Of a DNA stretch of 64,000 bases, positions 11,191 to 64,000 are shown in pieces. The position numbers were made by a program, and so were the translations under genes. The notes beneath the pieces were generated by a model, which was not told where the DNA came from, ran no database searches, and saw nothing but the letters and a program-made list of their open reading frames with translations. This DNA is from Verrucomicrobium sp. BvORR034 (GTDB lineage: Bacteria; Verrucomicrobiota; Verrucomicrobiia; Verrucomicrobiales; Verrucomicrobiaceae): NCBI RefSeq assembly GCF_000739635.1, contig NZ_BATQ01000142.1, positions 1 to 64,000 of the forward strand, written 5' to 3'. Each line of letters opens with the position of its first letter. Position 1 is the first letter of the stretch.

Positions 11191-13536
11191 ATGACCTCTC
11201 CACTCTTCGGCCTCATTGCGCAGCTCGCTCAAACCCGCATTCACCTCCCGCTCATCCATATCGAGACACGTTTTCGCATCTCCGGGGAGGTGGTCTCTGT
11301 GCAGATGGATCAAGTGTTTGAACAAACCTCCCGCGAACCGTTGGATGTCACCTACACCTTCCCCCTGCCCGCCAGTGCGGCAGTGCATCGCTGCGAGATG
11401 ATCATCAACGACCGCGTGGTTCGCGCCGTGGTCATGGAGGAAAACGAAGCCCGCGAGACTGCAGCCACCAAAAAAGCGGAGGGACATCGCACCGCCTTGG
11501 TCGAGGTGACTCGCGACAACCTCTTCACCCTGCAACTGGGCAACGTCAGCCCGGGAGATCGCATCGTCATCCGCTTCGCCTACGTGGAGTGGCTCGACCG
11601 CCTGGGCCCCCAGCTGAGTCTGCGCATCCCCTTCAGCCCCGGGATCCGCTACATTCCCGGCCAGCCGCTGCTGCGCAGTAACAGAGGCCAGGGCAGCGTG
11701 GACGACACGGATCAAGTTCCCGACGCTTCAAAGATCTCACCACCGCGCATCCGGGGCAACCACCCCGACGCAGCCACGATGTATCTGCACGGGGAATTTG
11801 ATGCCGATGAGGTGAATGTGCGCACCCTGACATCCCCCTCCCATCACGCCGTCTTCCGCAGCCTTCATGGACGTCTTGAGGCAGAACTGTCCGGCGAGGA
11901 GCAGATCCCCGACCGCGACTTTGTCGTACGATGGGAGGAAACTACCACTGGCAGCTCGGCCATGGGCCGTGCCTGGACGGGCGGGCCCCGCTCCGGAACC
12001 GACCACGAACGGGACAACTCGGTTTATGCGCTCCTGCAACTGCGGGCTCCACAGATCGAAGCACTGGCCGTCCAAGAAGACCTTGCTCAGGACTTCTGGT
12101 TCCTGGTGGATCGCTCTGGCAGCATGCAGGGGGACAAGTGGCAGAAGTGTGCCGAAGCTCTCCACACCTTCGTGAAAGAGCTGGGCGCCAACGACCGCAT
12201 CTGGATTACCTGTTTTGAGACGGGATTCCGCGACTTCGCCGAGCGTCCCCTGCGACGCGACGAACTGCTGGCCGACAAAGGCTTTCAAGCCATCGCCAAA
12301 TTGGGTACAGGCGGCGGCACTGAACTGCTACCTGCACTCAAACACGTGCTGGCGAAACGCGCCACCCATGCGGACGCCTCCCGCCCTTCTCGCATCATCC
12401 TCATCACCGACGGCCAAGTCGGCAACGAGCCGGAGAACCTGCATCGTATGCAGCAGCCAGACGCTGCACCCCTGTCAGTCCATTGCTTTGGCATCGATGA
12501 TGCCGTGAACGATGCTTTCCTGAAGGCTCTCGCCCGTCAATCTGGGGGACGCTGTACGTTGATGACGCCCAAGGACGACATTCCGGCAGCCGTGAAGCGG
12601 CTCGCCCTCACCCTGCGACGTCCCGTGCTCACCAAAATTCACCTGGAGCAGGCGGAGGCCGGGATGGAGGAAGGAGATCTGCCCGAGAAAATCACTGACC
12701 TATACGCCAGCGAGGTCACGCTGCTGGCTGTGAGGTGCCGCTCTACTGCGAGCCACATCACCCTGCACGCCCTCCAGCCGGGAGGCATCCCCTGGAGCCA
12801 GACGTTCTCATTGAACCTCGAACCCGGCAATGCTCTGCCTCGTCTGATCTGGACTCAACGCCGATGTCAGGATCTCCTGGCCTCCCATCGCAAACCAGCC
12901 GCCATCCAACTGGCCATCTCCCACAACCTCGTCTGCGAAGGCACCTCCTTCATCGCCTGGGATGAGCAAGAGAAGGTCTCTGTAGCCACGCGTGAAGTGT
13001 ATCAACCGTCTGTGGCGGTTGGCGGGGCTATGTTTGATTCACTTCCGATGGCTGCGGCAGCAGCGCTGTCACCAGCAGCTTTCGGAATCAAGAAGCGCTC
13101 TTCCCTCGGAAAGGTGGCACTTCGATCACCCCACACCGCGTACGACGGATTGGATTTGGCTCCGGCAGCATCATTTCCAGAGGTTGCGCGGTCAACCGAT
13201 CGCAAACAGCAATTGCTTGCAAATGTCGGTGGACGTTTTGGATACTTCCATCGGCTGGCCCGTCGCCGCCGCAAGCCCTGGATGACACCTCTTCGTGATC
13301 TGCTTGTTTCCCACAACCTGGAAACGGAAGTGGCCAACGCCCTTGTGATGATCCTCTTCATCTGGGCAGACTTGGCGGACGATGCCGCTGACCGACATTC
13401 CCAGATGGAAGAATTGCTCCGTCAGGTGCAGTCCATGTCTGCACCACAAGACTATCTGGACTCCTACATTGAGATGATCCTTCCCCAAGATAAGACGCAG
13501 CTCTTCCATGACCTTATGAACCTGAAGGCGGCATAA
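11191..13536 (+). CDS. VIT and vWA domain protein
   Basis: 781 residues. Residues about 1-130 form a VIT (vault/inter-alpha-trypsin) domain: PLTYTFPLPASAAVHRC-like text, then VVMEENEARE and LFTLQLGNVSPGDRIVIRF. A von Willebrand A domain starts at about 305 with the MIDAS motif DRSGSM; the conserved TGGGTEL and ITDGQVGNE follow. The C-terminal 250 residues are poorly conserved and include an Arg-rich patch near 690. No signal peptide or sortase signal, so it is probably cytoplasmic. VIT/vWA proteins are thought to be metal-dependent protein-protein scaffolds. The MerR gene just upstream suggests regulated expression; its cellular partner is unknown. Confidence 0.9.
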   Translation: MTSPLFGLIAQLAQTRIHLPLIHIETRFRISGEVVSVQMDQVFEQTSREPLDVTYTFPLPASAAVHRCEMIINDRVVRAVVMEENEARETAATKKAEGHRTALVEVTRDNLFTLQLGNVSPGDRIVIRFAYVEWLDRLGPQLSLRIPFSPGIRYIPGQPLLRSNRGQGSVDDTDQVPDASKISPPRIRGNHPDAATMYLHGEFDADEVNVRTLTSPSHHAVFRSLHGRLEAELSGEEQIPDRDFVVRWEETTTGSSAMGRAWTGGPRSGTDHERDNSVYALLQLRAPQIEALAVQEDLAQDFWFLVDRSGSMQGDKWQKCAEALHTFVKELGANDRIWITCFETGFRDFAERPLRRDELLADKGFQAIAKLGTGGGTELLPALKHVLAKRATHADASRPSRIILITDGQVGNEPENLHRMQQPDAAPLSVHCFGIDDAVNDAFLKALARQSGGRCTLMTPKDDIPAAVKRLALTLRRPVLTKIHLEQAEAGMEEGDLPEKITDLYASEVTLLAVRCRSTASHITLHALQPGGIPWSQTFSLNLEPGNALPRLIWTQRRCQDLLASHRKPAAIQLAISHNLVCEGTSFIAWDEQEKVSVATREVYQPSVAVGGAMFDSLPMAAAAALSPAAFGIKKRSSLGKVALRSPHTAYDGLDLAPAASFPEVARSTDRKQQLLANVGGRFGYFHRLARRRRKPWMTPLRDLLVSHNLETEVANALVMILFIWADLADDAADRHSQMEELLRQVQSMSAPQDYLDSYIEMILPQDKTQLFHDLMNLKAA

Positions 13537-26492: not shown

Positions 26493-27075
26493 GCAACCGG
26501 AAATCATGGGCAAGGCTTTTGGCCGACAGGCACAAACCCCTCATCCTTGAAGAACACCCTTCATTCAATCCATGATCAACTCGCCATCTGACCCTTGGTT
26601 GATCAGCCGGTAGAATCTCGAAGTAAGTTTGGTCAAACCAACGGCAAATTGAAGCGAGCGAGGTCTCGAATACTCCGCGCGCTTCAGCTTCCACCGAGTG
26701 AAGTCGCCCCCCCTTCGTTCCTTAGGCGAGGTTGGAGTTCCGCCCCGCATGCGGGACGGTCAGTACGCACCACGACTGCCCCATCGCCATCCTCCAGCAC
26801 CTCCAAATCTCGCGAAGCGTCTTGGAGTACGGTGGCTCGACTCCGTTCTCTAACCGTGATCACAGACGAATTGCGGCAATGGCAGCGTGAGCGGAGGAGA
26901 AGGCGGACGCAGCAGATGCAAGCGACGCTCCAGGACTCTGGCGTGCAGTCCGGTAATTCCAGCCATCATCAGAATCCAGGGAGAACTTGCGCCCCCCAAA
27001 CGCAAACTGGGACGACTTCACGTCGTCCCAGCAGTCAAAGTCTTTGGTCTTCTGTCTTCCAGTCTTTCGTCTTCC
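26493..27075. other. gene-free stretch with palindromes and degenerate repeats
   Basis: No credible gene: the frames here have no domain and run through repeats. Seen are CCCGCATGCGGG (26744-26755, as at 939-950), an eroded block near 26820-26860 (TTGGAGTACGGTGGCTCGAC), and a strong hairpin CTGGGACGAC-TTCAC-GTCGTCCCAG (27007-27031). The hairpin lies 45 bp past the stop of the minus-strand proton-channel operon and may end it, although no T run follows. Confidence 0.6.
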
Positions 27076-28221
27076 TTAGTCCGCCGTCATCTTCGGTGCA
27101 GCGATCTTCACCGTTCCAGGAGGCGGAGGCGGTTGCGGCTTGGGCGGGGTGAAGTTCACCTCGAACTCGGCCACATTCTTCTGGTAGAAGGGATTGCCGT
27201 AAAGCTCCCACACCACTGGCACGCCTTCGGTGTCAGCATAGTCACGAGCAGCAAGGAAGGCTTCCACCGAATCCTTGAACACATAGAACCACATCACGGT
27301 GTTGGGCTCGCTCTTAAATTTACGGACCGCACGCTGATACGTGGAAGCGGGATTCTTGAACTGCTCAATGCCTTCTCCCCCTTGCGGATTGGGGGTCAAA
27401 CGCATGGGCATGCGCGGCGCATTGGGAGCTTCCACCACCTCCATCTTCAGGTCGCGCACCGGGAGGCGCAGATTCACAAAGTGCTGCGCGATCTTTTTCT
27501 GGTCGAAGACAGTCTTCATCTTCGGCACATCCTTGCCGCGCACTTTCTCCATGACCGGATTGCCAAACGTGTCTTTCACCGGCACTTCACCAAAGACGAG
27601 ACTCTTCTGATTCTTCTCGATTTCCTGGACGACATACTTCATGAACTCGATGTCGTTCAAATAGTACACCTTGCCGCCAGTGACGATGAAGCGTTGCACT
27701 GTGGCATTTTCAGGAATCTCACGTGGATTAGGCAGCTTCACCACTGTCGCGGGTGGCGGCACGTACCGGGGCGTGGAATCAATCGCTTTCTTGAGCTTGT
27801 CCAGTTCGGCCAAGAGCTTGTCCACATCTTCCTTGCTGGTGTCGCGGACTTTCTTACGCTCCTCAAGTTGCTTACGAAGCTCATCCAAGTCCATGTGCTT
27901 GGGCGAATTCTTATCCATGGAAAGATCCATGGTCTTGAGCTCTTCAGTGGCCTTTTTAAGAGCCTGCTGAGTCTCCTTCATCTCTTCCTCGAGCTTCTTG
28001 GGATCTTCCTTGGGGGTATCCTTGACCACCACCTTCTTCAGCTCTTCCAGCTGTTCTTTGGTGACGGGCGGCAGATCGGAGAGCACCTTGCGCACGGCTT
28101 GGGCAAGGCTGATGCCGATCATCACCAGCACGATGATCAACACGCCCACCACGTTGGTCATGGTGTCCATGAGGGCGACGAAGGGCAATTCTTCGTCATG
28201 AGCTTCTCTGCGTTTGGCCAT
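27076..28221 (-). CDS. ExbD/MotB-like membrane stator protein with coiled coil (third gene of operon)
   Basis: 381 residues. A single N-terminal membrane helix (about 17-40) is preceded by ELPFVALMD, with Asp19 at the membrane entrance in the position of the proton-carrying Asp of ExbD/TolR/MotB. Residues about 50-160 are a charged coiled coil, then a Pro-rich linker and a mixed alpha/beta C-terminal region (VQRFIVTGGKVYYLND, then FVNLRLPVRDLKMEV) ending in a Pro-rich tail. It lacks a TonB-like or OmpA peptidoglycan-binding motif. Paralog in layout of 28257-29252, 35 bp upstream. Predicted to pair with the ExbB-like channel at 29318. Confidence 0.75.
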   Translation of the reverse strand: MAKRREAHDEELPFVALMDTMTNVVGVLIIVLVMIGISLAQAVRKVLSDLPPVTKEQLEELKKVVVKDTPKEDPKKLEEEMKETQQALKKATEELKTMDLSMDKNSPKHMDLDELRKQLEERKKVRDTSKEDVDKLLAELDKLKKAIDSTPRYVPPPATVVKLPNPREIPENATVQRFIVTGGKVYYLNDIEFMKYVVQEIEKNQKSLVFGEVPVKDTFGNPVMEKVRGKDVPKMKTVFDQKKIAQHFVNLRLPVRDLKMEVVEAPNAPRMPMRLTPNPQGGEGIEQFKNPASTYQRAVRKFKSEPNTVMWFYVFKDSVEAFLAARDYADTEGVPVVWELYGNPFYQKNVAEFEVNFTPPKPQPPPPPGTVKIAAPKMTAD

Positions 28222-28256
28222 GGCAGTAAGGGGCTGAGGCTTCGATCAGACGGGGC

Positions 28257-29252
28257 TTAAGGCTTGGGGGGCTGGGCTCCTGCGGCAGGAGCGGGAGCCG
28301 GTGCGGGTGCGGGTGCAGCAGCAGGCGCGGCGGCAGCTGCTGGCTTTGGTGCTGCAGCAGGAGCAGCACCAGCGGCGGGCATGAGCTTCGCCTCAGGTGG
28401 CGGAGGCAGGGTACCGAGGAAATCCTTGAACATTTGAAGGTCCACATCTCCACGCCCCGGCAGCAGCAGCTTGCCGATCTGGGTGACTTGATAGTTGTAG
28501 GTGGTCTGGGCCCAACCTGCGGCGTTGTTGAAAGCACCCGTGCCATCATCCCGCATGAGGAAGATGATCTTGGAGTTGGGCACATTCTTCACTTCCTTGA
28601 GGAAGTGGTTGTAGGCCGCGTCGGCTACGATCACTTCTGCCGCGGCACTGACCTGAGTGCGAGTCTTGGCATCCCAATAGATGATGATACGTCCACCGCC
28701 CGCCTCTACAAAGAAGACCTTGGTCCCCTTCGCCAGGCCGGAACCACCCGGCTGCACCATCACCGGCGGGGGTTTCTTGTCCGGCGGAATTTGGAGCTTC
28801 TTCAGCTCTTCCATGAGCGCGGCGATTTCCTTTTTCATCTCCGCCTGCGTCTTGGTAAGGCCTTCGATTTCGAGGAGCAGGTTGTCCAGTTCCTTCATCA
28901 GGTTCTGGCTCAGCTCCTCGTTCATCTTCTGAATGTCCGCTCCGGTGCTCAGCAGCTTGCGCAGCTTGGCTGAGCGTTCTTCTTTTTCCTGGAGCTCTTT
29001 CTTGAGCTTCTCCAGGGCGGCGAGTTTTTCCTTAATCAGCGTCTCTGTGCTGACGTCTTCCTTCTGCTTCTTCTGAAGCTCCACGAACTCCTTGGACATC
29101 GCCAGTTCTTCTGGCGTGCGTCCGTTGGTCTGCTGGGACTGGGCCACGCACAGCACCACAATGATGAGGATCAGCACCCCAATCAGGGAACACAGAATGT
29201 CCAGGAAGGGAATTAGGAGAAGCTCCTCAGTCTTGTGGCGGCGGCGGCTCAT
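28257..29252 (-). CDS. ExbD/MotB-like membrane stator protein with Pro-Ala tail (second gene of operon)
   Basis: 331 residues. The N-terminus TEELLLIPFLD places Asp18 at the start of the only membrane helix (about 18-40), the ExbD/MotB pattern. A long coiled coil follows (about 55-150), then an alpha/beta domain (KGTKVFFVEAGGGRIIIYWD, later NSKIIFLMRDDGTGAF) and a C-terminal tail made almost only of Ala and Pro that could span the cell wall. The layout resembles 27076-28221 but the sequences differ strongly, so the channel may use a hetero-pair. It lies 65 bp downstream of the ExbB-like gene. Confidence 0.75.
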   Translation of the reverse strand: MSRRRHKTEELLLIPFLDILCSLIGVLILIIVVLCVAQSQQTNGRTPEELAMSKEFVELQKKQKEDVSTETLIKEKLAALEKLKKELQEKEERSAKLRKLLSTGADIQKMNEELSQNLMKELDNLLLEIEGLTKTQAEMKKEIAALMEELKKLQIPPDKKPPPVMVQPGGSGLAKGTKVFFVEAGGGRIIIYWDAKTRTQVSAAAEVIVADAAYNHFLKEVKNVPNSKIIFLMRDDGTGAFNNAAGWAQTTYNYQVTQIGKLLLPGRGDVDLQMFKDFLGTLPPPPEAKLMPAAGAAPAAAPKPAAAAAPAAAPAPAPAPAPAAGAQPPKP

Positions 29253-29317
29253 GGATCAGCGGTCAGCGGCTCAGAATTGCAGGGGTGAAAGAGTCAGCAC
29301 AGGCACAGGGGAAGAAA

Positions 29318-30736
29318 TCAGTCGCGGCCGAACCAGCCCTTTTTCTTCACCTGCTGAACGAGAATTTGCTTTTCACCCAGCTCTTTGAGCACGGTGTTCA
29401 AGCCACGCACACCCGTCTCAAGCGCACCCATGTACTGGGTGACAACTTTGAGGGAATCTTTGAGGGACTCCTGCATCTCCGTGCGCATCTGGGTGGTGTT
29501 GTTGATGAATTCCTTGGTGACCACCTGCTGGAAGGCGTCAGAGCGTTTGTCCAGATTGCTGGCGTATTCGTTCATCCGCTTCGACAGCTCATTGAGGTCC
29601 ACAAGGAACTCCTTCTGAGCACCGGCCAGGCCGCGCATAACGGAGTCGGCAATTGCCGCCACATCGCCACCACCCGCGCCAGCACCATCGTTCAGGCGGG
29701 GCAGGAGCACTTCGTTGCAGAAGGCGTCGATCTCGTTGAGCATCTCGTCCTCGTTCTTGGCGAGCGCGTTCATGGGGAAGTTCAGGAACACGGCAAGCAC
29801 AAGGCCCAGCAGCGTCGCATCGAACGCCGTACCCAGACCGCTTGTCACCGCGCTGATGGATCCCACGATCGCGCTGACGTCATCCATGTTGGCAAAGCTC
29901 ATGCCACCGATGGCGTGAGAGAGACCGATAACCGTACCGATGAAACCCATGAGCGGAATGGCCCAAAGGAACGCCTTCAGCATGATGTAGCTGCCGCCGA
30001 TACGGGCACCGTCGATGCTCGACTGGCTGGACATCATGGAGCCGACATCCGGGGTGTTCTGACGAACTTCGAAGAGTTCCAGCGCCTTGCGAATGCGGTT
30101 CACCATCAGGCTGTCACGCAGACGGACAGGCATGTTGTAGAGGTGGTCGATGAAACTGCCGACGTTCTGGCCGTTGATTTCGCGGCCCAGTTCTGCTGGA
30201 AGCACATCCAGGAACAACGCTTCACGCTGGTGCTTCAACTTGCCGAGCTTGAGATAGAGAATCGCAGCCGCCCAGAAGAAGAACATCGTGTTGATGAAGC
30301 TGATCAGGAAGTGCTTGAAGAACACGTTCGCGATCGTCTCCATCGAGGAGTATTCCGCCACAGCCTTGGCTGCTGGTGCCTGGAAGGGGTACACGATGCC
30401 GAACCAGGCAATGGTCAACACAACGCCGATGGCAAAGCTCAGATACCCGTTGGGGTTCGTGGGATCGCTTTCCTTCCACCCAAGGCGCTCGGGTCTCTGA
30501 ACGAAGCTGTCCAAGCCCCCACCCACAGGCGGAGGGGGAGCGGCGTCAGGCAACGGTGCAGAGCTGCTGTAAGAAGGGGCGGCACCAGGAGAGGGCGCGT
30601 CTGCGGCAGGCGGCGTACCACCAATGTTTTCAGGAATCTGCAGCTTTGTATTGCAGCCGGGGCAGCGGACCACTTTGCCAGCCCATTCCGGCTCGGCCTT
30701 CAGACTCATGTCACATGATGGGCACTTGAACTTCAC
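29318..30736 (-). CDS. zinc-ribbon MotA/TolQ/ExbB proton-channel protein (first gene of operon)
   Basis: 472 residues, GTG start chosen because an ideal AGGAGGT Shine-Dalgarno (minus strand, 30742-30748) precedes it. Residues 1-30 form a zinc ribbon (Cys5, 8, 25, 28), then a Pro/Ala-rich linker to about 90. Helices lie near 98-118, 140-160, 255-278 and 290-315, and the third is the MotA/ExbB signature MGFIGTVIGLSHAIGG. The C-terminal 130 residues are a long helical cytoplasmic tail. Proton-driven motors of this family power outer-membrane transport, tolerance or motility; here the partners are two coiled-coil ExbD-like proteins. No TonB, OmpA or defence genes (such as Zorya zorC/zorD) are nearby. 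Confidence 0.85.
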   Translation of the reverse strand: MKFKCPSCDMSLKAEPEWAGKVVRCPGCNTKLQIPENIGGTPPAADAPSPGAAPSYSSSAPLPDAAPPPPVGGGLDSFVQRPERLGWKESDPTNPNGYLSFAIGVVLTIAWFGIVYPFQAPAAKAVAEYSSMETIANVFFKHFLISFINTMFFFWAAAILYLKLGKLKHQREALFLDVLPAELGREINGQNVGSFIDHLYNMPVRLRDSLMVNRIRKALELFEVRQNTPDVGSMMSSQSSIDGARIGGSYIMLKAFLWAIPLMGFIGTVIGLSHAIGGMSFANMDDVSAIVGSISAVTSGLGTAFDATLLGLVLAVFLNFPMNALAKNEDEMLNEIDAFCNEVLLPRLNDGAGAGGGDVAAIADSVMRGLAGAQKEFLVDLNELSKRMNEYASNLDKRSDAFQQVVTKEFINNTTQMRTEMQESLKDSLKVVTQYMGALETGVRGLNTVLKELGEKQILVQQVKKKGWFGRD

Positions 30737-43266: not shown

Positions 43267-44652
43267 ATGTCAGTACTCCTAGTGCCCCGTTGGCAGCGCA
43301 CCGTGTTGCGTTGGTTTTTAGAGCGACAGCTCCGAAAAGGAGTGCGTTCTCTTCCCTGTCCCCAGTGCCAGGGAAACCTTCCCTTCCCCCATCGGTTGAG
43401 CGATGAAATCCTGTGGGAGACGGTCATTACGTGCCCGGCATGCGGCCATGCGTGCTCTGTTCTGGAAGTCGCCTCCTACCGCCACAAGAGAGTCAAAGAA
43501 GCGTTTGCCGGGGAACACGCGGAAGAGAGTCCCCCTGCCACCTCGCACATCCATCGCGAGCACAACGGAACAACCCACACTTGGACGCTGCCCGCGCCCA
43601 AGAGTTGGAACGCACTGCTGAAGTTCGGCACCCTCTGGATGGCATTCAGCGTCTTCATCGCGTTTACCATTTTCTCTTCTGAAAAGTCCGCCACTCAGGG
43701 GTACTTGCCGCCCCTGATCGTGGCGGGGTTTGTCCTGGTCGGCGTCGGACTGCTCATCGCTGGCCTGCTTCAGAGCTTCACAAGCCACGTCTTGTCGCTG
43801 GATGCTTCGGGACTCGTCCACGAGCGAAACGTTTTCGGATCCATCAAACGCCGGTTTCTTCCCCGTGACCACATCGTCAGCGTGGAGTTGGAGCGCCTGT
43901 ACTCCCAGAACCGTCGTCCAGTTTATGTGATCGAAATCAAGGGGCATTCAGGGAAGATTCGGTTCGGCAGCGGGCTCCCTCCCAACGAAAAATCATGGCT
44001 CTGTGGTGATTTGCGCCGCGCCCTCTTGGTGACCCGGCAGGACACCGCCTCGCTGGATGTTGCGGACACGGGCAGCCCCAAGTCAGTACCGGCGCCCCGC
44101 ATCTTCATAGAGACACCCGGGCAGGGATGCGTCGTTCACGTGGCCCCGGGGAAGTTGGGCAAGGGGATCATGATCTTAGGCAGCGTGATTTTCGCCTTCG
44201 CGACCTTCTTGCTGATCATGGCACGGGGCCTGTGGTTGCCACTCTCGGGAGCCTGGCCCCTGCCATGGGTTCTGATTTGGAACGGCCTCTTCATCCTATG
44301 GTGTCTCAGCGTGATCCTCTTCGTGGGGTTAGGGCTGGGCACCATTCTCACGGGTTATCGCATGCTGCGCACCCACTTCAAGATCACCGCCACGCCCCAA
44401 GCGCTACAGGTGCTGGAGAGCCATGGGAACTGGCAACATGAAACACTCGTCCCCGCCTCAGACGTGAGGGACATCCGCACCAGCATCTATTTCACCATGG
44501 CTTCCGGTTCAGGCCCGCATAGAGCCACCAAGGTGAACCACTGCGCCCTCATCGTCCTACAAGATCGCGTGATCAGCTTTGGCGGTGAGTGCAGTCTGCC
44601 TGAACTCCAATCCACTACGACCGCGCTCAAGCAAGCGCTGGGACATGAGTGA
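43267..44652 (+). CDS. zinc-ribbon integral membrane protein, copy 1
   Basis: 461 residues. A cytoplasmic N-terminal zinc ribbon (CPQC at 31-34, CPAC at 56-59) is followed by two membrane helices (about 120-140 and 150-170), a beta-rich soluble domain (SGLVHERNVFGSIKRR), two more helices (about 300-320 and 335-365), and a final PH-like beta domain ending in ISFGGECSLPELQ. The copy at 44802 has the same layout and start (MSV..PRWQR.LLRWFL-like). No named family is evident. A membrane receptor or scaffold role is a guess. Confidence 0.75.
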   Translation: MSVLLVPRWQRTVLRWFLERQLRKGVRSLPCPQCQGNLPFPHRLSDEILWETVITCPACGHACSVLEVASYRHKRVKEAFAGEHAEESPPATSHIHREHNGTTHTWTLPAPKSWNALLKFGTLWMAFSVFIAFTIFSSEKSATQGYLPPLIVAGFVLVGVGLLIAGLLQSFTSHVLSLDASGLVHERNVFGSIKRRFLPRDHIVSVELERLYSQNRRPVYVIEIKGHSGKIRFGSGLPPNEKSWLCGDLRRALLVTRQDTASLDVADTGSPKSVPAPRIFIETPGQGCVVHVAPGKLGKGIMILGSVIFAFATFLLIMARGLWLPLSGAWPLPWVLIWNGLFILWCLSVILFVGLGLGTILTGYRMLRTHFKITATPQALQVLESHGNWQHETLVPASDVRDIRTSIYFTMASGSGPHRATKVNHCALIVLQDRVISFGGECSLPELQSTTTALKQALGHE

Positions 44653-44801
44653 CCTTCCCCTGACCGATCCCTGCGAGCCCTCCCCGGGCCAAAGCCGATC
44701 TGCCAGCAGATTCAATCCATCCCCCATGGTCTCCCAGCGAACCTGCTGGATCCATCCCATGAGGATCATCATTTCAGTAACAAGCCATTCATCTGACTCC
44801 T

Positions 44802-46208
44802 ATGTCAGTCCAAACTCTGCCCCGTTGGCAGCGCGCTCTGTTGCGCTGGTTCCTCGACCGCAAAATCCGGAAAAACAACCGCCCTCTTCCCTGTCCCCAA
44901 TGCCAGGGACACGTACCTCTCCCACACCGGCTGAACGACGCCATGTGGGATATGCTGGTGACCTGTCCCCATTGTGGGCACGCGGCCTCATTGATGGACT
45001 TCGCTGCGGATCACAACAAGACTCCGGAAGAAAAACTCGCTGCGGGACGGATCGCCACCACTCCACCCGTCGCCACCCGCATCACGGTCGAAGACACGGG
45101 CTCCTCCCGCACCTGGATCCTTCCTGCCAAAGGCGGGTGGAATCCGCTGCTTGGGTTTGGCACCATCTGGTTTCTGTTTTCTTCTGTCTTCTTTGCCATC
45201 TTCTTGTTCGGCAATGTATCAGGCATCGGGAACATTCCGGCCTTCCTGCTCATCAGCGCGTTTCTCCTCATTGGGGTCGGCCTGATCTATGGCGGACTTG
45301 GGCAAAGCTTCTCTCATCACGTCCTAAATGTGGATGCGGTGGAGCTTGTCCATGAGCGGCGCATGTTTGGCAACGTCAAGCGCAAGGCTTTGCCACGCGA
45401 GGACATCTCCAGCGTAGAGCTCGTGGTGTTCTACTCGGAAAACTACAAACCCGTGCATGGGATTGAGATCAAAGCCGGGCGACGGAAGATCCGGTTCGGC
45501 AGCGGGCTCACCCCTGAAGAGAAAGCCTGGCTCTGCGAGGAGTTGCGCCACGCTGTCAGCCTGCGCCACACCGCTGCCCGTTCAGCGACCCATTCCGCTG
45601 AATCATTGCGGGACACTTCATCGGTCTTGGGAACTTCGTCGAACCCTCGCGTTGAAGTGAACCACCGCGGTCACGGCTGCGTAGTCCGCATCGCCCCCGG
45701 GAACCATGGGAAACATGTTCTGGTCATGGGCTGTATCTTCGTGGCGGTCGCCACCTTCATGATCGTCATGGGCTCCCGGATGTGGCTGCCGCCTTCAGAA
45801 GGCGCGCCCTTGCCCTTCATGCTGCTGTGGAACGGCTTTTGCCTCTTCTGGTGCGGCGGCGTATCCATCTTTGGGCTCATGGGCCTTGCGGTCATGATCG
45901 CCGGCTGGCGCATGAATCGCACCAGCTTCCAGATCACCGCCACGCCCGATGCGCTGCAGATCCTGGAGTCCTGTGGTCTTAGTCAGCATGAAACCCTCGT
46001 GCCCGCCTCCGAGGTGCAAGACATTCGCACCGGGTTGTTTCAAACGATTCAATCCACCTCCGGCAACGAGAGTTCCACTGAGACTCAGCACCGCGGCATC
46101 ATTGTCTTGAGCGACCGGGTGGTGGGCTTTGGCGGTGGATGTAGTCTCCACGAACTCAATAGAGCGGTCACAGCGTTGCATACGACCTTGCGCAGGACGG
46201 CACCTTAA
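44802..46208 (+). CDS. zinc-ribbon integral membrane protein, copy 2
   Basis: 468 residues, a clear paralog of 43267: CPQC at 31-34, CPHC at 55-58, the same four helices, the same soluble domain (VELVHERRMFGNVKRKALPRED) and the same end (VVGFGGGCSLHELNRAVTAL). Conserved across the pair are the zinc ribbon, the F/G-rich helix pair and the RKIRFGSGL motif (about 225). They diverge in loops, so the duplication is old. The 149-bp gap upstream has no clear terminator, so co-transcription is possible. Confidence 0.75.
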   Translation: MSVQTLPRWQRALLRWFLDRKIRKNNRPLPCPQCQGHVPLPHRLNDAMWDMLVTCPHCGHAASLMDFAADHNKTPEEKLAAGRIATTPPVATRITVEDTGSSRTWILPAKGGWNPLLGFGTIWFLFSSVFFAIFLFGNVSGIGNIPAFLLISAFLLIGVGLIYGGLGQSFSHHVLNVDAVELVHERRMFGNVKRKALPREDISSVELVVFYSENYKPVHGIEIKAGRRKIRFGSGLTPEEKAWLCEELRHAVSLRHTAARSATHSAESLRDTSSVLGTSSNPRVEVNHRGHGCVVRIAPGNHGKHVLVMGCIFVAVATFMIVMGSRMWLPPSEGAPLPFMLLWNGFCLFWCGGVSIFGLMGLAVMIAGWRMNRTSFQITATPDALQILESCGLSQHETLVPASEVQDIRTGLFQTIQSTSGNESSTETQHRGIIVLSDRVVGFGGGCSLHELNRAVTALHTTLRRTAP

Positions 46209-59309: not shown

Positions 59310-60671
59310 ATGAAAACATTGGGGCCTGCTGCATTCCTGCCTGACAACGATGTCACAGGAATCCCGACGGCTGAAGCCCTGACGTTCCTCGACCGACTCG
59401 TCGCCACCGGCGAAGATCGCACCAGCTACGCCTCCCCCTATGGGAGGGTATTTTTCTTCAATCACCCAGATGACGTGCGATCCGTCCTGCAGGATCGCAA
59501 CTTCATCCGCCCACCCCTGATGAAGTCCCTGCTGGGAGACGGGCTGCTCACCAGTGAGGGGGCTCTGTGGAAGACGCAGCGGCGTCTGCTGCAGCCCGCC
59601 TTCCATATGCCTTGCGTTCACGCCCTCCTTCCGGGCATACATGCTGCACTGGCAGACTTCATCCCCAGATGGGAGCTGGCCTCCCGTACCGGCGAGCGGG
59701 TGGAGATAGCAGCGGCAATGCGACGCCTGACTCTGGACATCATCTTGCGGTGCCTTTTTGGCATCCGCATGGGCAATGAGCTGGAGACCATGGGGGCGGC
59801 TCTGACGGTGGTGATCCATGATCTGGGCCTGCTCACAGGCACCCTCCTGCTCCAACCTCACCAAGTCAGCCCCCGGCGCAACACGGAGTTTCAAGAAGCA
59901 CTCGCCACGGTAAACGACCTCATCCACGGCATCATCAGCCATCATCGGGCTCTGCCGCCCGGCACGGGAGGGGGCGTTAACATCTTAAACCTGCTGGACC
60001 AGGCCCGCTCCGCCTCAGGCGAACCGCTCCCTGAGAAACTCATCCGCGATGAGGTCGCCAGCATGATCATCGGCGGTCACGAAACCCTCGCCAATGTCCT
60101 CTCCTGGACCTGGGAAACGCTGGCCCTGCGCCCGGATCTTGTCGCAAGCCTGCATGCCGAGGTGGATGCCCACACCCGACACCCGCTCTCCCAGGCTGAC
60201 CTGCCCCACCTTCCGCTGACGATGGGCCTCTTCAAAGAAGCCCTGCGCCTGTTTCCCCCAGTGTGGTTCATGGTGCGCAGTCCCCTGGAGCCATGCAAAC
60301 TCGGCGGAGTGGATCTGCCTGCCGGTGCGCAGGTAATGATCAGCCCCTACACGCTGCATCGTCATCGGGAATTTTGGCCCCATCCGGATGTTTTTGACCC
60401 GGCTCGCTACACCCCGGAGGCTGAGGCCGCGCGGCACAAGGGAGCATGGATTCCCTTTGCCGCTGGTCGCCACCTCTGCCTGGGCCTTCCGCTGGCCATG
60501 ATGGAGGGTCCCCTGATCCTCGCCACACTGGCGCGCCGTTTTGTGGTCGAGCCGCTCGCCGAGGGCCAGCCTCCTTTGGCCGCGTCCCCGCTGGTCACGC
60601 TACGGCAGCGCAATGGCCTGCCTGCTCGTGTTATTTCCCGCACTCCCCCTTCCCCCAAGCTCCCTGACTGA
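59310..60671 (+). CDS. cytochrome P450
   Basis: 453 residues, soluble. The oxygen-activating I-helix has IIGGHETLANVLSW (compare the usual A-G-x-x-T), the K helix ExxR is in FKEALRLF, and the haem-binding loop is FAAGRHLCLGLPLA with Cys ligand (matches F-x-x-G-x-x-x-C-x-G). It probably hydroxylates a fatty-acid-like or peptide intermediate. It ends 3 bp before a GTG-started fatty acyl-AMP ligase gene and is co-directional with the NRPS gene, so it is most likely the first gene of that cluster in this window. Confidence 0.95.
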   Translation: MKTLGPAAFLPDNDVTGIPTAEALTFLDRLVATGEDRTSYASPYGRVFFFNHPDDVRSVLQDRNFIRPPLMKSLLGDGLLTSEGALWKTQRRLLQPAFHMPCVHALLPGIHAALADFIPRWELASRTGERVEIAAAMRRLTLDIILRCLFGIRMGNELETMGAALTVVIHDLGLLTGTLLLQPHQVSPRRNTEFQEALATVNDLIHGIISHHRALPPGTGGGVNILNLLDQARSASGEPLPEKLIRDEVASMIIGGHETLANVLSWTWETLALRPDLVASLHAEVDAHTRHPLSQADLPHLPLTMGLFKEALRLFPPVWFMVRSPLEPCKLGGVDLPAGAQVMISPYTLHRHREFWPHPDVFDPARYTPEAEAARHKGAWIPFAAGRHLCLGLPLAMMEGPLILATLARRFVVEPLAEGQPPLAASPLVTLRQRNGLPARVISRTPPSPKLPD

Positions 60672-60674
60672 CCC

Positions 60675-62393
60675 GTGCCATTCCCCGATCCTGTGTCATC
60701 CCCGCCTGCTCGTTCCTGGATGGAACTCCTCCGTCAGCATGCAGACCGCGTCCCCGACAAGATAGCGGTCACCCTGCTGGCCAACGGGGAGACGGAGAGC
60801 GGGCACCTCACCTACCGCGAACTGGATCTGCGCGCCCGGGCCATCGCCGGGCATCTGCAGTCCGCTGGCCTGGGGGGCAGGTGCGTGCTCCTGCTGCATC
60901 CTTCGGGCCTGGAATTTGTCACCGCCTTCTTCGGTTGTCTTTACGCGGGGGTCATCGCCGTGCCGGTCTTCCCTCCAAGGTTCAACCGCAACATGCAGCG
61001 GCTGGACCATATCATCGCAGACACCTCGCCGGGGCTGGTGCTGACCACCACCAGTATGATGAGCCGACGCGAGACCGCCCCGGCCCTTTCGGAAATACCC
61101 TGGGTGGCCACGGAACTCATCCCAGAAGCCTCAGCAGACTCATGGGCCGCCCCTGCATTGGAGCGCAGCAACATCGCTTTTCTCCAATACACATCCGGCT
61201 CCACCTCCGCGCCCAAGGGTGTGATGGTCACCCATGGCAACCTCCTGGCCAATCATGCCATGATGCAGGCGGCCTATGATCAGGATGAGAACAGCACCAT
61301 CGTGTGCTGGATGCCTCTCTTTCATGACATGGGGTTGATCACTGCACTGTTGCAAGGGCTCTATCTAGGGTCCCGGGTGGTGATCATGCCGCCGGAGACG
61401 TTTATCATGAAGCCAGCCCGCTGGCTCCAGGCGATGTCTCGATACCGCGCCCATTCCACTGGCGCTCCAAATTTTGCCTACGACCTCTGTGTGAGAAAAG
61501 TCACGCCTGAGCAATGTCAGGATCTGGACCTCAGCGCCTGGCGTCTGGCCATGAATGCCGCCGAGCCGGTGGTGGCGGAGACCCTGCAGCAGTTCACCAC
61601 CAAGTTTGCCCCGTACGGCTTCCGCCAGGAGACTCTCAATCCCGGCTACGGCCTGGCAGAGGCCACGGCGTTTGTCACCTCCGGTGCCTGCGCCGCCTTG
61701 CCGGTGCTCCACCTGACGCCCCCCTCCACCACACCCGACAGCACCACGACGCGCCCCAAGGTCGCCTGCGGCCCACCGTGGGAGGGTGGGCAGGTGCTCA
61801 TAGTCGATCCCGATTCGCTCGAACCCTGCCCGCCCGGAGTGGTTGGGGAGATCTGGCTGACCGGCCCCCATGTCGCCGCCGGTTATTGGAACCAACCTGA
61901 GGCGACCACCCGCACCTTCCACGCCTTTACCGCGGGCGGCACGCACGGGCCCCATCTTCGCACGGGTGATCTGGGCTATATGTATCAAGGCGAACTGTGC
62001 GTCTCCGGCCGGCTCAAAGACATCGTCATTGTCTGCGGACAGAATCATGATCCGGCCGACATCGAACTGACCGTGGAGGCCAGCCACCCGCGCATCCGAC
62101 CCCACGCCACAGCAGCCTTTGGCATCTATGATGGGGACACTGAGAAGTTGGTGGTGCTGGCGGAACTGGGGCGTCCTGCACGAGGCGAAACGGCCGACGG
62201 CGATGCGGCCACCCTGCACACCGAGATCCTCAGAAATGCCCGCCGAGATGTGAGCGAGCAACACGGCATCACCCTGCATGAGCTCGTGCTGCTGCCGCCC
62301 TCTTCCCTGCCAAAGACTACCAGCGGCAAGATCCAGCGGCATGCCGCGCGCCGACTCTACCTCGACCGTCAGCTCCCTCCTCTCTCCCGATGA
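60675..62393 (+). CDS. fatty acyl-AMP ligase (FAAL-type adenylation enzyme)
   Basis: 572 residues, GTG start. Adenylation motifs: YTSGSTSAPKGVMVTH (phosphate loop), GYGLAEAT, GEIWLTGPHVAAGYW, LRTGDLGYMYQGELCVSGRLKD, and PKTTSGKIQR with the C-terminal Lys. The shape (long N-terminal domain, no CoA-specific C-terminal features seen) and the following carrier protein fit FAAL proteins that load fatty acids as acyl-AMP on an acyl carrier, rather than making acyl-CoA. Overlaps the next gene by 4 bp (ATGA). It supplies the lipid starter for the NRPS at 62390. Confidence 0.9.
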   Translation: MPFPDPVSSPPARSWMELLRQHADRVPDKIAVTLLANGETESGHLTYRELDLRARAIAGHLQSAGLGGRCVLLLHPSGLEFVTAFFGCLYAGVIAVPVFPPRFNRNMQRLDHIIADTSPGLVLTTTSMMSRRETAPALSEIPWVATELIPEASADSWAAPALERSNIAFLQYTSGSTSAPKGVMVTHGNLLANHAMMQAAYDQDENSTIVCWMPLFHDMGLITALLQGLYLGSRVVIMPPETFIMKPARWLQAMSRYRAHSTGAPNFAYDLCVRKVTPEQCQDLDLSAWRLAMNAAEPVVAETLQQFTTKFAPYGFRQETLNPGYGLAEATAFVTSGACAALPVLHLTPPSTTPDSTTTRPKVACGPPWEGGQVLIVDPDSLEPCPPGVVGEIWLTGPHVAAGYWNQPEATTRTFHAFTAGGTHGPHLRTGDLGYMYQGELCVSGRLKDIVIVCGQNHDPADIELTVEASHPRIRPHATAAFGIYDGDTEKLVVLAELGRPARGETADGDAATLHTEILRNARRDVSEQHGITLHELVLLPPSSLPKTTSGKIQRHAARRLYLDRQLPPLSR

Positions 62394-64000
62394 CACCCGA
62401 AGCTCTCACCGCCTGGCTGGTTGAAAAAACCGCCTCCCTTCTCCAACTTCCCGTTCACTACGTCGACCCCGCCCAACCCTTTGCCAGCCAGGGATTGGAC
62501 TCCATGGGGATGCTGGAACTGACGGGCGACCTCGCCGCCCACCTTGGCCGTGAGTTGCCCCCTTCGCTGATTTGGGAGCACCCCACCATCGTCGCCCTTG
62601 CCAGCCACCTCACCCAGACTTCTTCGGAGATGGATGAGCTCCCCATTGTGCCGGTGTCCAGAGATATCCCGATCCCCCAAACCTTCGCTCAGGAACGCAT
62701 GTGGCGGGAGTACCAGGTCAACGGTCATGATCGACGTCAGATAGTGTGGCGGCTCCTCCGGCTGACTGGGGATGAACTGGATCTTCCTGTGCTGAAGGAA
62801 AGCGTGACCAGGCTCATGTTGCGCCATGAAGCCCTGCGCACCACCTTCACCGAAGCTGGTGGCATGCCCGTGCAGCAAATCCACCCTTCGCCGCTCGGCG
62901 AGCTTGAGATCATCGACCTCACCGGACAAGAGGGCGCAGAACAGAGCGCGAGGGTTCACATCGAGGAGGCCGTAAAGCAGCCCATCGACCTCTCCGTGGG
63001 CCCACTCGCGCGCTTTCACCTCTTTGTATTGGGCAAAGGAAACTACCTCTTCTGCCTTCTCATTCACCACATTATTTGTGACGGAGAATCCAACCGGATT
63101 CTCATCGAGGACCTCGGCCAGATCTACCAGGCCGCCCTGGCGGGTGCGATCGCCGGGATTTCCGAGCCGGCGCCATTAACGGTCCAGACGGCCGACTTTG
63201 CCACCTGGCAGCGTCAATGGCTTAAAGAGGATGGCAGTGCCTATACAAGACACGTGACCTGGTGGAACGAACTTCTGGGCAGCACACCGCCCTCCTACGC
63301 CTGCGCGGGACTCCGGTGGGAGCAGGCACCGACCACCCTGGATCCCGAGCAGTGTCGCGTCGGACGTCTGATCTCGCTGAAGACACTTCAGAAACTGGAA
63401 GCCCTATCCGTGCAGGAAGGTAGCACCGTCGCCAATGTGGTTTACACCGCTATGGTGCTGGCCTTGAGCCGACATGGCACAGACGCCCGGGCTCTCCTGG
63501 GCAGCTACGTCACCGACCGCCGGCGTCCTGCCCTGCGCCGGCTGCCAGGCCTCTATGTGAACCTGATAGTGATGCCCATGCCGCAGGTTCCGGCCGGAGA
63601 TTTTCTGGAGGCCTTGCACACCGTCACTGAGGCGCTGCACCAGATCGCCCTACACCAGGATTTGCCCTTTGAAGAGCTGGCCAAAGCCCGTGCCAAGGCC
63701 AGCCTCTACGCCCCCCACCCTCTCATGATCTTCAACTACCGCCGACAGGCAGAATTGCCCGAGTTCTTGGTCCCTGGAGTGACGATCAGTGGATGGAAGA
63801 CGGCTACCAAACGTAAGAGGACCGCCATCCCCTGGGGCATGAACATCGCCGGAGTGGAAAATGATGCCGGCATTGACCTGCACGCCATCTATGACGTTGG
63901 CCTCTACGATCCCGCGAAGGTGGACGCCATGCTGGAAGACCTGGCCTCCATTCTCTTCACTGTCGCGGCGTCATTCACTGGGGCACGTACTGATCCAGCT
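62390..64000 (+). CDS. NRPS: carrier domain plus condensation domain (3' end beyond window)
   Basis: Open from the ATG at 62390 (inside the FAAL stop region) to the window end, 537 codons with no stop. Residues about 1-80 are an acyl/peptidyl carrier with the phosphopantetheine Ser in QGLDSMGML. Residues about 98 to the window end are an NRPS condensation domain, with a QERMW start and the catalytic motif HHIICDG (about 222-228), then LRRLPGLYVNL. A carrier-first protein fed by FAAL implies that the first condensation joins a fatty acyl group to an amino acid. The rest (probably an adenylation domain) lies outside. Confidence 0.9.
   Translation, partial: MTPEALTAWLVEKTASLLQLPVHYVDPAQPFASQGLDSMGMLELTGDLAAHLGRELPPSLIWEHPTIVALASHLTQTSSEMDELPIVPVSRDIPIPQTFAQERMWREYQVNGHDRRQIVWRLLRLTGDELDLPVLKESVTRLMLRHEALRTTFTEAGGMPVQQIHPSPLGELEIIDLTGQEGAEQSARVHIEEAVKQPIDLSVGPLARFHLFVLGKGNYLFCLLIHHIICDGESNRILIEDLGQIYQAALAGAIAGISEPAPLTVQTADFATWQRQWLKEDGSAYTRHVTWWNELLGSTPPSYACAGLRWEQAPTTLDPEQCRVGRLISLKTLQKLEALSVQEGSTVANVVYTAMVLALSRHGTDARALLGSYVTDRRRPALRRLPGLYVNLIVMPMPQVPAGDFLEALHTVTEALHQIALHQDLPFEELAKARAKASLYAPHPLMIFNYRRQAELPEFLVPGVTISGWKTATKRKRTAIPWGMNIAGVENDAGIDLHAIYDVGLYDPAKVDAMLEDLASILFTVAASFTGARTDPA

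Follow-up and report, generated by a model that had tools for sequence, protein, structure and literature searches.

A Verrucomicrobium operon for a probable ion-driven motor with a zinc-ribbon ring protein and two unlike coiled-coil axle subunits

What is driven by an ExbB-like channel that is encoded together with two different ExbD-like subunits, and that has no TonB, Tol or Pal gene near it? This question is raised by three genes on the minus strand of a 64,000-nucleotide stretch of DNA from Verrucomicrobium sp. BvORR034 (contig NZ_BATQ01000142.1, positions 1 to 64,000; hereafter the window), which an initial annotation, made from the letters alone, had read as an operon for a force-generating complex. 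The three genes, here called exbB, D1 and D2, probably encode an ion-driven motor of the 5:2 class that has a D1–D2 heterodimeric axle and works on the wall or envelope. The 5:1:1 stoichiometry, ion flow, rotation, direction of force, partners and output are inferred by analogy with this class of motors.

Ring protein, axle helices and ion-site acids

The genes, and the residues through which ions would pass, are the following.

29318..30736, minus strand: exbB-like channel gene, 472 amino acids, recognised by its PF01618 match, a match within its own genome and hydropathy
28257..29252, minus strand: D1, ExbD/TolR-like axle subunit, 331 amino acids, adjoining exbB in 75 loci; AlphaFold2 model with a mean predicted local distance difference test (pLDDT) score of 84
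27076..28221, minus strand: D2, second ExbD/TolR-like axle subunit, 381 amino acids, adjoining D1 in 71 of 80 loci
29933..29935, minus strand: channel pore Thr268 (GFIGTV), kept in 81 of 81 homologues and aligned with the Thr of GLLGTV in the other ExbB proteins of the same genome
29813..29815, minus strand: channel pore Thr308 (AFDATLLGL), kept in 81 of 81 homologues and aligned with the Thr of ATAFGL in the TonB-linked ExbB of the same genome
29199..29201, minus strand: D1 Asp18 codon, putative ion-binding carboxylate; among 76 homologues, 55 have Asp and 21 have Ser
28165..28167, minus strand: D2 Asp19 codon, putative ion-binding carboxylate; Asp in 72 of 72 homologues
28177..28179, minus strand: D2 Val15, a position held by Asp in every homologous operon with D1 Ser18

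The channel protein matches MotA_ExbB (PF01618) with E 1.7e-11 and 44.4 bits against a curated cut-off of 22.9, and hydropathy predicts four membrane segments in it (residues 97–115, 144–162, 255–273 and 300–318), which would put both of its ends in the cytoplasm, as in MotA. D1 and D2 share homology across their N-terminal halves, and each starts with a basic stretch followed by a single membrane helix that bears the Asp. The unit was followed through 80 loci from a collection holding one genome per species, and was complete and in the same order in 71 of them, which bears out the reading of the three minus-strand open reading frames (ORFs) as an operon. Eight of the nine loci that have no adjacent D2 stop at a contig edge; the ninth (L086) belongs to genome G265, where D2 has been displaced to another contig, beside a transposase-like ORF and with its Asp retained (L217, L218). 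The displacement in G265 could also be an assembly fault of a metagenome-assembled genome. Contig ends aside, D1 and D2 always co-occur within a genome.

Both axle proteins had been described as keeping the membrane Asp (D18/D19), and the conservation of these residues had been named as one test of the motor reading. Both acids are indeed present in the window, but conservation is split between the subunits, being invariant in D2 and giving way to Ser in about a quarter of D1 homologues. The loci in which both genes can be read fall into two types with zero exceptions, 52 with D1 Asp and D2 Val15 and 20 with D1 Ser and D2 Asp15, the latter residue standing one helical turn ahead of Asp19. That the added D2 acid is found in 20/20 D1-Ser operons versus 0/52 D1-Asp operons is what a pore common to both helices would lead one to expect. 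Where D1 has no carboxylate a D1 homodimer would be unable to carry ions, and this, together with the fact that D1 and D2 travel together, makes a hetero-axle the most economical model. Whether these operons form a natural family of hetero-axle (5:1:1) motors, in which just one axle subunit has the essential carboxylate at the usual site, is in our view evenly balanced.

On a wider tree the clade to which the window's zinc-ribbon channel protein belongs has D1-Ser operons in both branches of its deepest split, and the D1-Asp operons, the window's included, form one nested group. The simplest reading of this arrangement is an ancestral D1-Ser/D2-DxxxD state that changed to D1-Asp/D2-VxxxD; in the window's lineage the second acid appears to have returned to D1.

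Spacers, periplasmic domains and the cytoplasmic side

Beyond the membrane helices, the following parts of the three proteins were distinguished.

28794..29114, minus strand: D1 single coiled-coil-like helix, residues 47–153 (AlphaFold2; period 3.48)
27775..28059, minus strand: D2 coiled-coil-like helices, residues 55–149, with two low-confidence breaks (AlphaFold2, mean pLDDT 78; period 3.44)
28458..28754, minus strand: D1 TolR/ExbD-type periplasmic domain, residues 167–265 (fold matches of the AlphaFold2 model)
27196..27759, minus strand: D2 TolR/ExbD-type periplasmic domain with an inserted segment (fold matches of the AlphaFold2 model)
28260..28403, minus strand: D1 Pro/Ala-rich C-terminal tail, of low model confidence and of variable length among homologues
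30626..30736, minus strand: zinc ribbon C5-x2-C8-x16-C25-x2-C28 at the N-terminus of the channel protein, inferred to be cytoplasmic; supported by Cys conservation
29321..29719, minus strand: C-terminal tail of the channel protein, putatively cytoplasmic, with a helical hydrophobic repeat (period 3.62 over residues 365–455)

It had been proposed that a long coiled coil replaces the usual periplasmic domain in both axle proteins. The coiled coil is upheld by a hydrophobic repeat of about 3.5 residues in the middle helices, the power of which was reached by 0.4% of shuffles for D1 and 1.4% for D2, and the 107 helical residues of D1 would give a shaft of ~16 nm if straight. Over 72 loci, the stretch that separates the ion site from the C-terminal domain measures 163 ± 1.5 residues for D1 and 145.5 ± 1.1 for D2; as this length stays nearly fixed while identity to the window proteins falls to about 33% (D1) and 26% (D2), a rigid spacer is suggested. 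The correlation between the two spacer lengths (Spearman 0.21, p 0.08) was too weak to serve as evidence of D1–D2 pairing, and this line of argument was dropped.

The supposed replacement of the periplasmic domain does not hold, since a TolR/ExbD-type domain was found beyond the coiled coil in the models of both proteins. For D1 the fold matches include TolR 5by4 (Z 7.5, root-mean-square deviation (rmsd) 3.5 over 88, rank 1), ExbD 8vgd (Z 6.2, rmsd 2.2 over 69, rank 3) and ExbD 8pek (Z 6.0, rmsd 3.3 over 87, rank 5), and the top three PDB folds for D2 are TolR 5by4 (Z 7.8), ExbD 8pek (Z 6.3) and TolR 2jwk (Z 6.0). Many relatives have a larger insert in the D2 domain, bringing D2 to ~515–530 amino acids. 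TolR and ExbD emerged by fold alone: the alignments of D1 and D2, used as profiles against the PDB, hit nothing but coiled coils, and the Pfam, NCBIfam and PADLOC matches of the two proteins were either to coiled coils or below curated cut-offs. The match is nonetheless credible because the same two families head both lists and because the membrane helix and gene order are also TolR-like. On these models, it is credible that D1 and D2 have kept the periplasmic domain of TolR/ExbD and carry it outward on an added coiled-coil spacer.

The four cysteines of the zinc ribbon (Cys5/8/25/28), likewise part of the initial annotation, are kept in 77/77 of the channel homologues that extend to the ribbon, and its placement on the cytoplasmic end agrees with the four membrane segments described above. 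Apart from the divergent L155, the ribbon was not found in the other classes sampled in the Planctomycetes–Verrucomicrobia–Chlamydiae (PVC) group. Unrelated proteins of the phylum carry comparable ribbons at their N-termini, ahead of a linker and a membrane helix, and the ribbon of the channel protein therefore looks like a borrowed module. Of the suggestion that it controls the motor, conservation is the part that stands; control itself finds no support beyond this, like ribbons being carried by unrelated proteins.

Genomic neighbourhood and related motor classes

The three genes are co-directional, with gaps of 65 bp between exbB and D1 and 35 bp between D1 and D2; exbB starts with GTG, and an AGGAGG lies a few bases 5' of the start. 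Directly 3' of D2 stands the following element.

27006..27032, minus strand: terminator-like hairpin of 11 pairs

Taken together, the short gaps, the AGGAGG and the hairpin are best read as marking a single transcription unit. In Pfam searches it was found to be flanked upstream by gpsA and plsY and downstream by a CitMHS_2 transporter gene on the opposite strand. The window lies on a 70-kb contig (C59) of an 8.6-Mb genome, and profile searches of this contig gave no match to ExbD (PF02472), TonB_C or OmpA/Pal, in line with the earlier statement that no TonB, Tol or Pal gene is near. The only TonB_C match of the genome adjoins another exbBD on contig C44 (receptors were not searched), and PF00691 (OmpA/Pal) matches are confined to contigs C54 and C23. 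The nearest channel protein, from Verrucomicrobium sp. BvORR106, shows 96% identity over 452 columns.

A search for partner genes conserved beside the operon found none: among the 66 loci with at least 2 kb upstream, no flanking family is shared by more than 13, and the unit thus looks self-contained, with any partners encoded elsewhere. The thirteen-locus synteny groups were rejected as partners, as they lie upstream of the operon, are housekeeping-like by eye (not profiled) and belong to a minority of loci. The unit is retained in the genus Verrucomicrobium, across a bacterial family and beyond, and is not patchy within the family; full-length relatives of D2 were found in 10 of 288 sampled genomes of the phylum, all in the same class, with none in the genus-g5 genomes listed in that sample. 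A scan of IMG/VR with the channel protein gave no relative.

Several other features of the window and its genome were recorded. A protein with VIT and vWA domains is encoded at 11191–13536, at least 13–14 kb from the operon, and is not a conserved neighbour. Two adjacent, similar ORFs of 461 and 468 amino acids at 43267–46208 start with MSV..PRWQR..LRWFL, contain a CPQCQG motif and have no Pfam match. The region 59310–64000, possibly a biosynthetic cluster, holds in a row the ORFs of a cytochrome P450 and an AMP-binding enzyme and another long ORF, and runs off the window. Further ExbB loci lie elsewhere in the genome (L193:6562–8278 and L192:7068–7974, on contigs C145 and C18); in one of them ExbB precedes three ExbD genes, of which two start almost identically, and in the other ExbB has two ExbD genes beside it.

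Neighbourhoods of distant channel matches across the phylum yielded several classes that each combine a single channel protein with two TolR-like genes, in addition to the window's zinc-ribbon clade, termed class A, which is separate on the channel tree. Genomes G187 (L011, L186) and G199 (L013, L165) hold both class A and class B. In class B, D1 has Asp and the -4 position of D2 is mostly Glu or Asp. Its layout (L154:3160–10983; similar in L151–L163, L169, L173 and L174) comprises a ~1000-amino-acid protein without a Pfam match, a ~300–450-amino-acid protein, the ring protein, a pair of TolR-like proteins and a vWA protein that is Gly-rich and membrane-anchored and that in L154, where Pfam was run, matches VWA_3 with E 2.3e-9. 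The D2 of the class B locus L170 (SLDLLLGPMCN) has its ion-site Asp changed to Gly and keeps the Asp four residues earlier, the reverse of the other cases.

The axle proteins of class C are short and without coiled coil; the ion site of D1 is Ser, Cys, Ala or Asn, and D2, the start of which is detectably related to that of the window D2 (E 3e-6 to 9e-4), carries two Asp at a distance of four residues in C1 and a single Asp in C2. These loci (L166–L168, L171, L172, L176, L178, L196–L204) encode a ~500-amino-acid ring protein with two short TolR-like proteins, and in some of them the ring protein is followed by a protein of ~650–685 amino acids (SGL/NHL-like in L178). Class D loci (L177, L180, L182, L206, L212) combine a ring protein with two long TolR-like proteins, both with SF[LM]D, and some have an intervening protein of ~350–490 amino acids (without a Pfam match in L177, the one tested). 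The wider tree, some branches of which are long, requires at least four changes between acid and neutral residues; with class C lacking the D1 acid as well, acid-less D1 is not confined to one clade. A rule by which loss of the D1 acid equals gain of an acid at D2 -4 was rejected, since it fails in these other classes.

The motor model, its rivals and its meaning

In the model that we favour, five channel proteins would form the outer ring and one D1 and one D2 the inner axle, paired via their membrane helices and coiled coils. Ions would be carried by the axle carboxylates (D1 D18, D2 D19) against Thr268 and Thr308 of the ring, and their passage would make ring and axle rotate against each other. 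As a stiff spacer of ~15 nm, the coiled coil would put the TolR/ExbD-type domains far out in the periplasm, at the peptidoglycan or beyond, within reach of the peptidoglycan or of a partner in the outer membrane to which they would hold on; on the inner side, the zinc ribbon and the long channel tail would link the rotating ring to a factor in the cytoplasm whose gene lies elsewhere. The force-generating complex of the initial annotation is retained here as an ExbB-type complex with two axle-like subunits and a long shaft, with the correction that the periplasmic domain has been moved out and not lost.

Several points weigh against this model. The co-change of D1 Ser and D2 Asp15 is a single event on the channel tree, and is therefore suggestive of a shared pore but not statistical evidence for one; outside class A, the link between the two fails in class C2, where D1 has Asn without an acid at D2 -4, and in class B, where D1 has Asp yet -4 is mostly Glu or Asp. 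The Z scores of 6.0–7.8 are middling, the D1 and D2 models reach no E below 0.001 with Foldseek by itself, PF02472 does not match either protein at E up to 1, and the AlphaFold2 models are of single chains. No conserved partner gene, finally, was found beside the operon.

Among the nearest familiar systems are TolQR and ExbBD, which share with this system the PF01618 channel, the two pore Thr, the axle helix with Asp and the TolR/ExbD-type periplasmic domain. They differ from it in that the present axle subunits are two and unlike, lack a PF02472 match and carry a coiled-coil spacer of ~100 residues, the channel has a zinc ribbon and four membrane segments instead of the three of TolQ/ExbB, and there is no TolA, TonB or Pal. 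In having a ring and a dimeric axle with a long periplasmic shaft the system also resembles GldLM of type IX secretion and gliding, and the 18 nm of the GldM shaft (PMC9389320) is close to the estimate for the D1 helix; the GldM shaft is, however, a row of folded domains in a homodimer. AglRQS, the Myxococcus gliding motor, is also encoded by consecutive genes for one TolQ-like and two unlike TolR-like proteins (PMC3169522, PMC9389320). AglQ (162 amino acids) and AglS (194) both match PF02472, whereas D1 and D2 bear long coiled coils, and a zinc ribbon is not described for AglRQS. Hetero- versus homodimer is stated as not known for AglQ and AglS (PMC9389320), which leaves room for a reading in which D1 and D2 are separate homodimers that compete for one channel ring and so make two motors, the more so as both retain Asp in the window. 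We consider this unlikely, given that D1 is without a carboxylate in 21/76 homologues, where its homodimer could not carry ions, and that, contig ends aside, the two genes are always together in a genome.

Paired TolR-like genes have also been published for the PVC force-transducer systems, in which a TolQ-like and two TolR-like proteins go with a vWA transducer (PMC12204202), and the class B loci, such as L154 with its channel, two D proteins and membrane-anchored vWA protein, match that system in part. That the window encodes a version of it with the vWA partner elsewhere is distinctly unlikely: class A is a separate clade of the channel tree and carries a zinc ribbon, it has no conserved adjoining vWA or TPR gene or other frequent flanking family, and G187 and G199 each hold both classes. 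A diverged Zorya-like anti-phage motor, in which the cytoplasmic tail would signal to an effector, is brought to mind by the best PADLOC matches of the channel protein, which are ZorA models (E 2.6e-10), and by the MotA/ExbB ring with a long cytoplasmic tail that it shares with ZorAB. The ZorA match mainly reflects the common MotA/ExbB pore, however, and ZorB has an OmpA-type domain, for which D1 and D2 gave no match at E up to 1, their domains being TolR-like. No ZorC/D or ZorE effector gene is present in the operon, its neighbours are housekeeping genes with no conserved flank and no defence genes near, and the unit is kept across a family and beyond instead of being patchy, all of which makes such a defence role very improbable. 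The heterodimeric 5:2-class motor is thus the reading that we retain.

AglRQS and the PVC vWA systems already provide examples of two TolR-like subunits per ring. For the zinc-ribbon ring protein, the coiled-coil TolR-like axle and the axle subunit that lacks a carboxylate, no description was found in open-access papers, nor was a zinc-ribbon clade without vWA found described, and the term zinc ribbon is absent from PMC12204202. The family adds a coiled-coil TolR axle of nearly fixed length to the known means of transferring force across the periplasm. Models of 5:2 motors assume a homodimeric axle with two equivalent ion sites and hence ten steps per turn, and a turn driven by five ions would call for a completely new motor model (PMC9389320). 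If true, one-carboxylate hetero-axles would break the two-fold equivalence beneath the ten-step model, and natural axles that miss one site would offer a ready-made test both of the number of ions per turn and of heterodimeric versus homodimeric axles. The acid-less axle subunit of some relatives bears on the turning of all motors of the 5:2 class.

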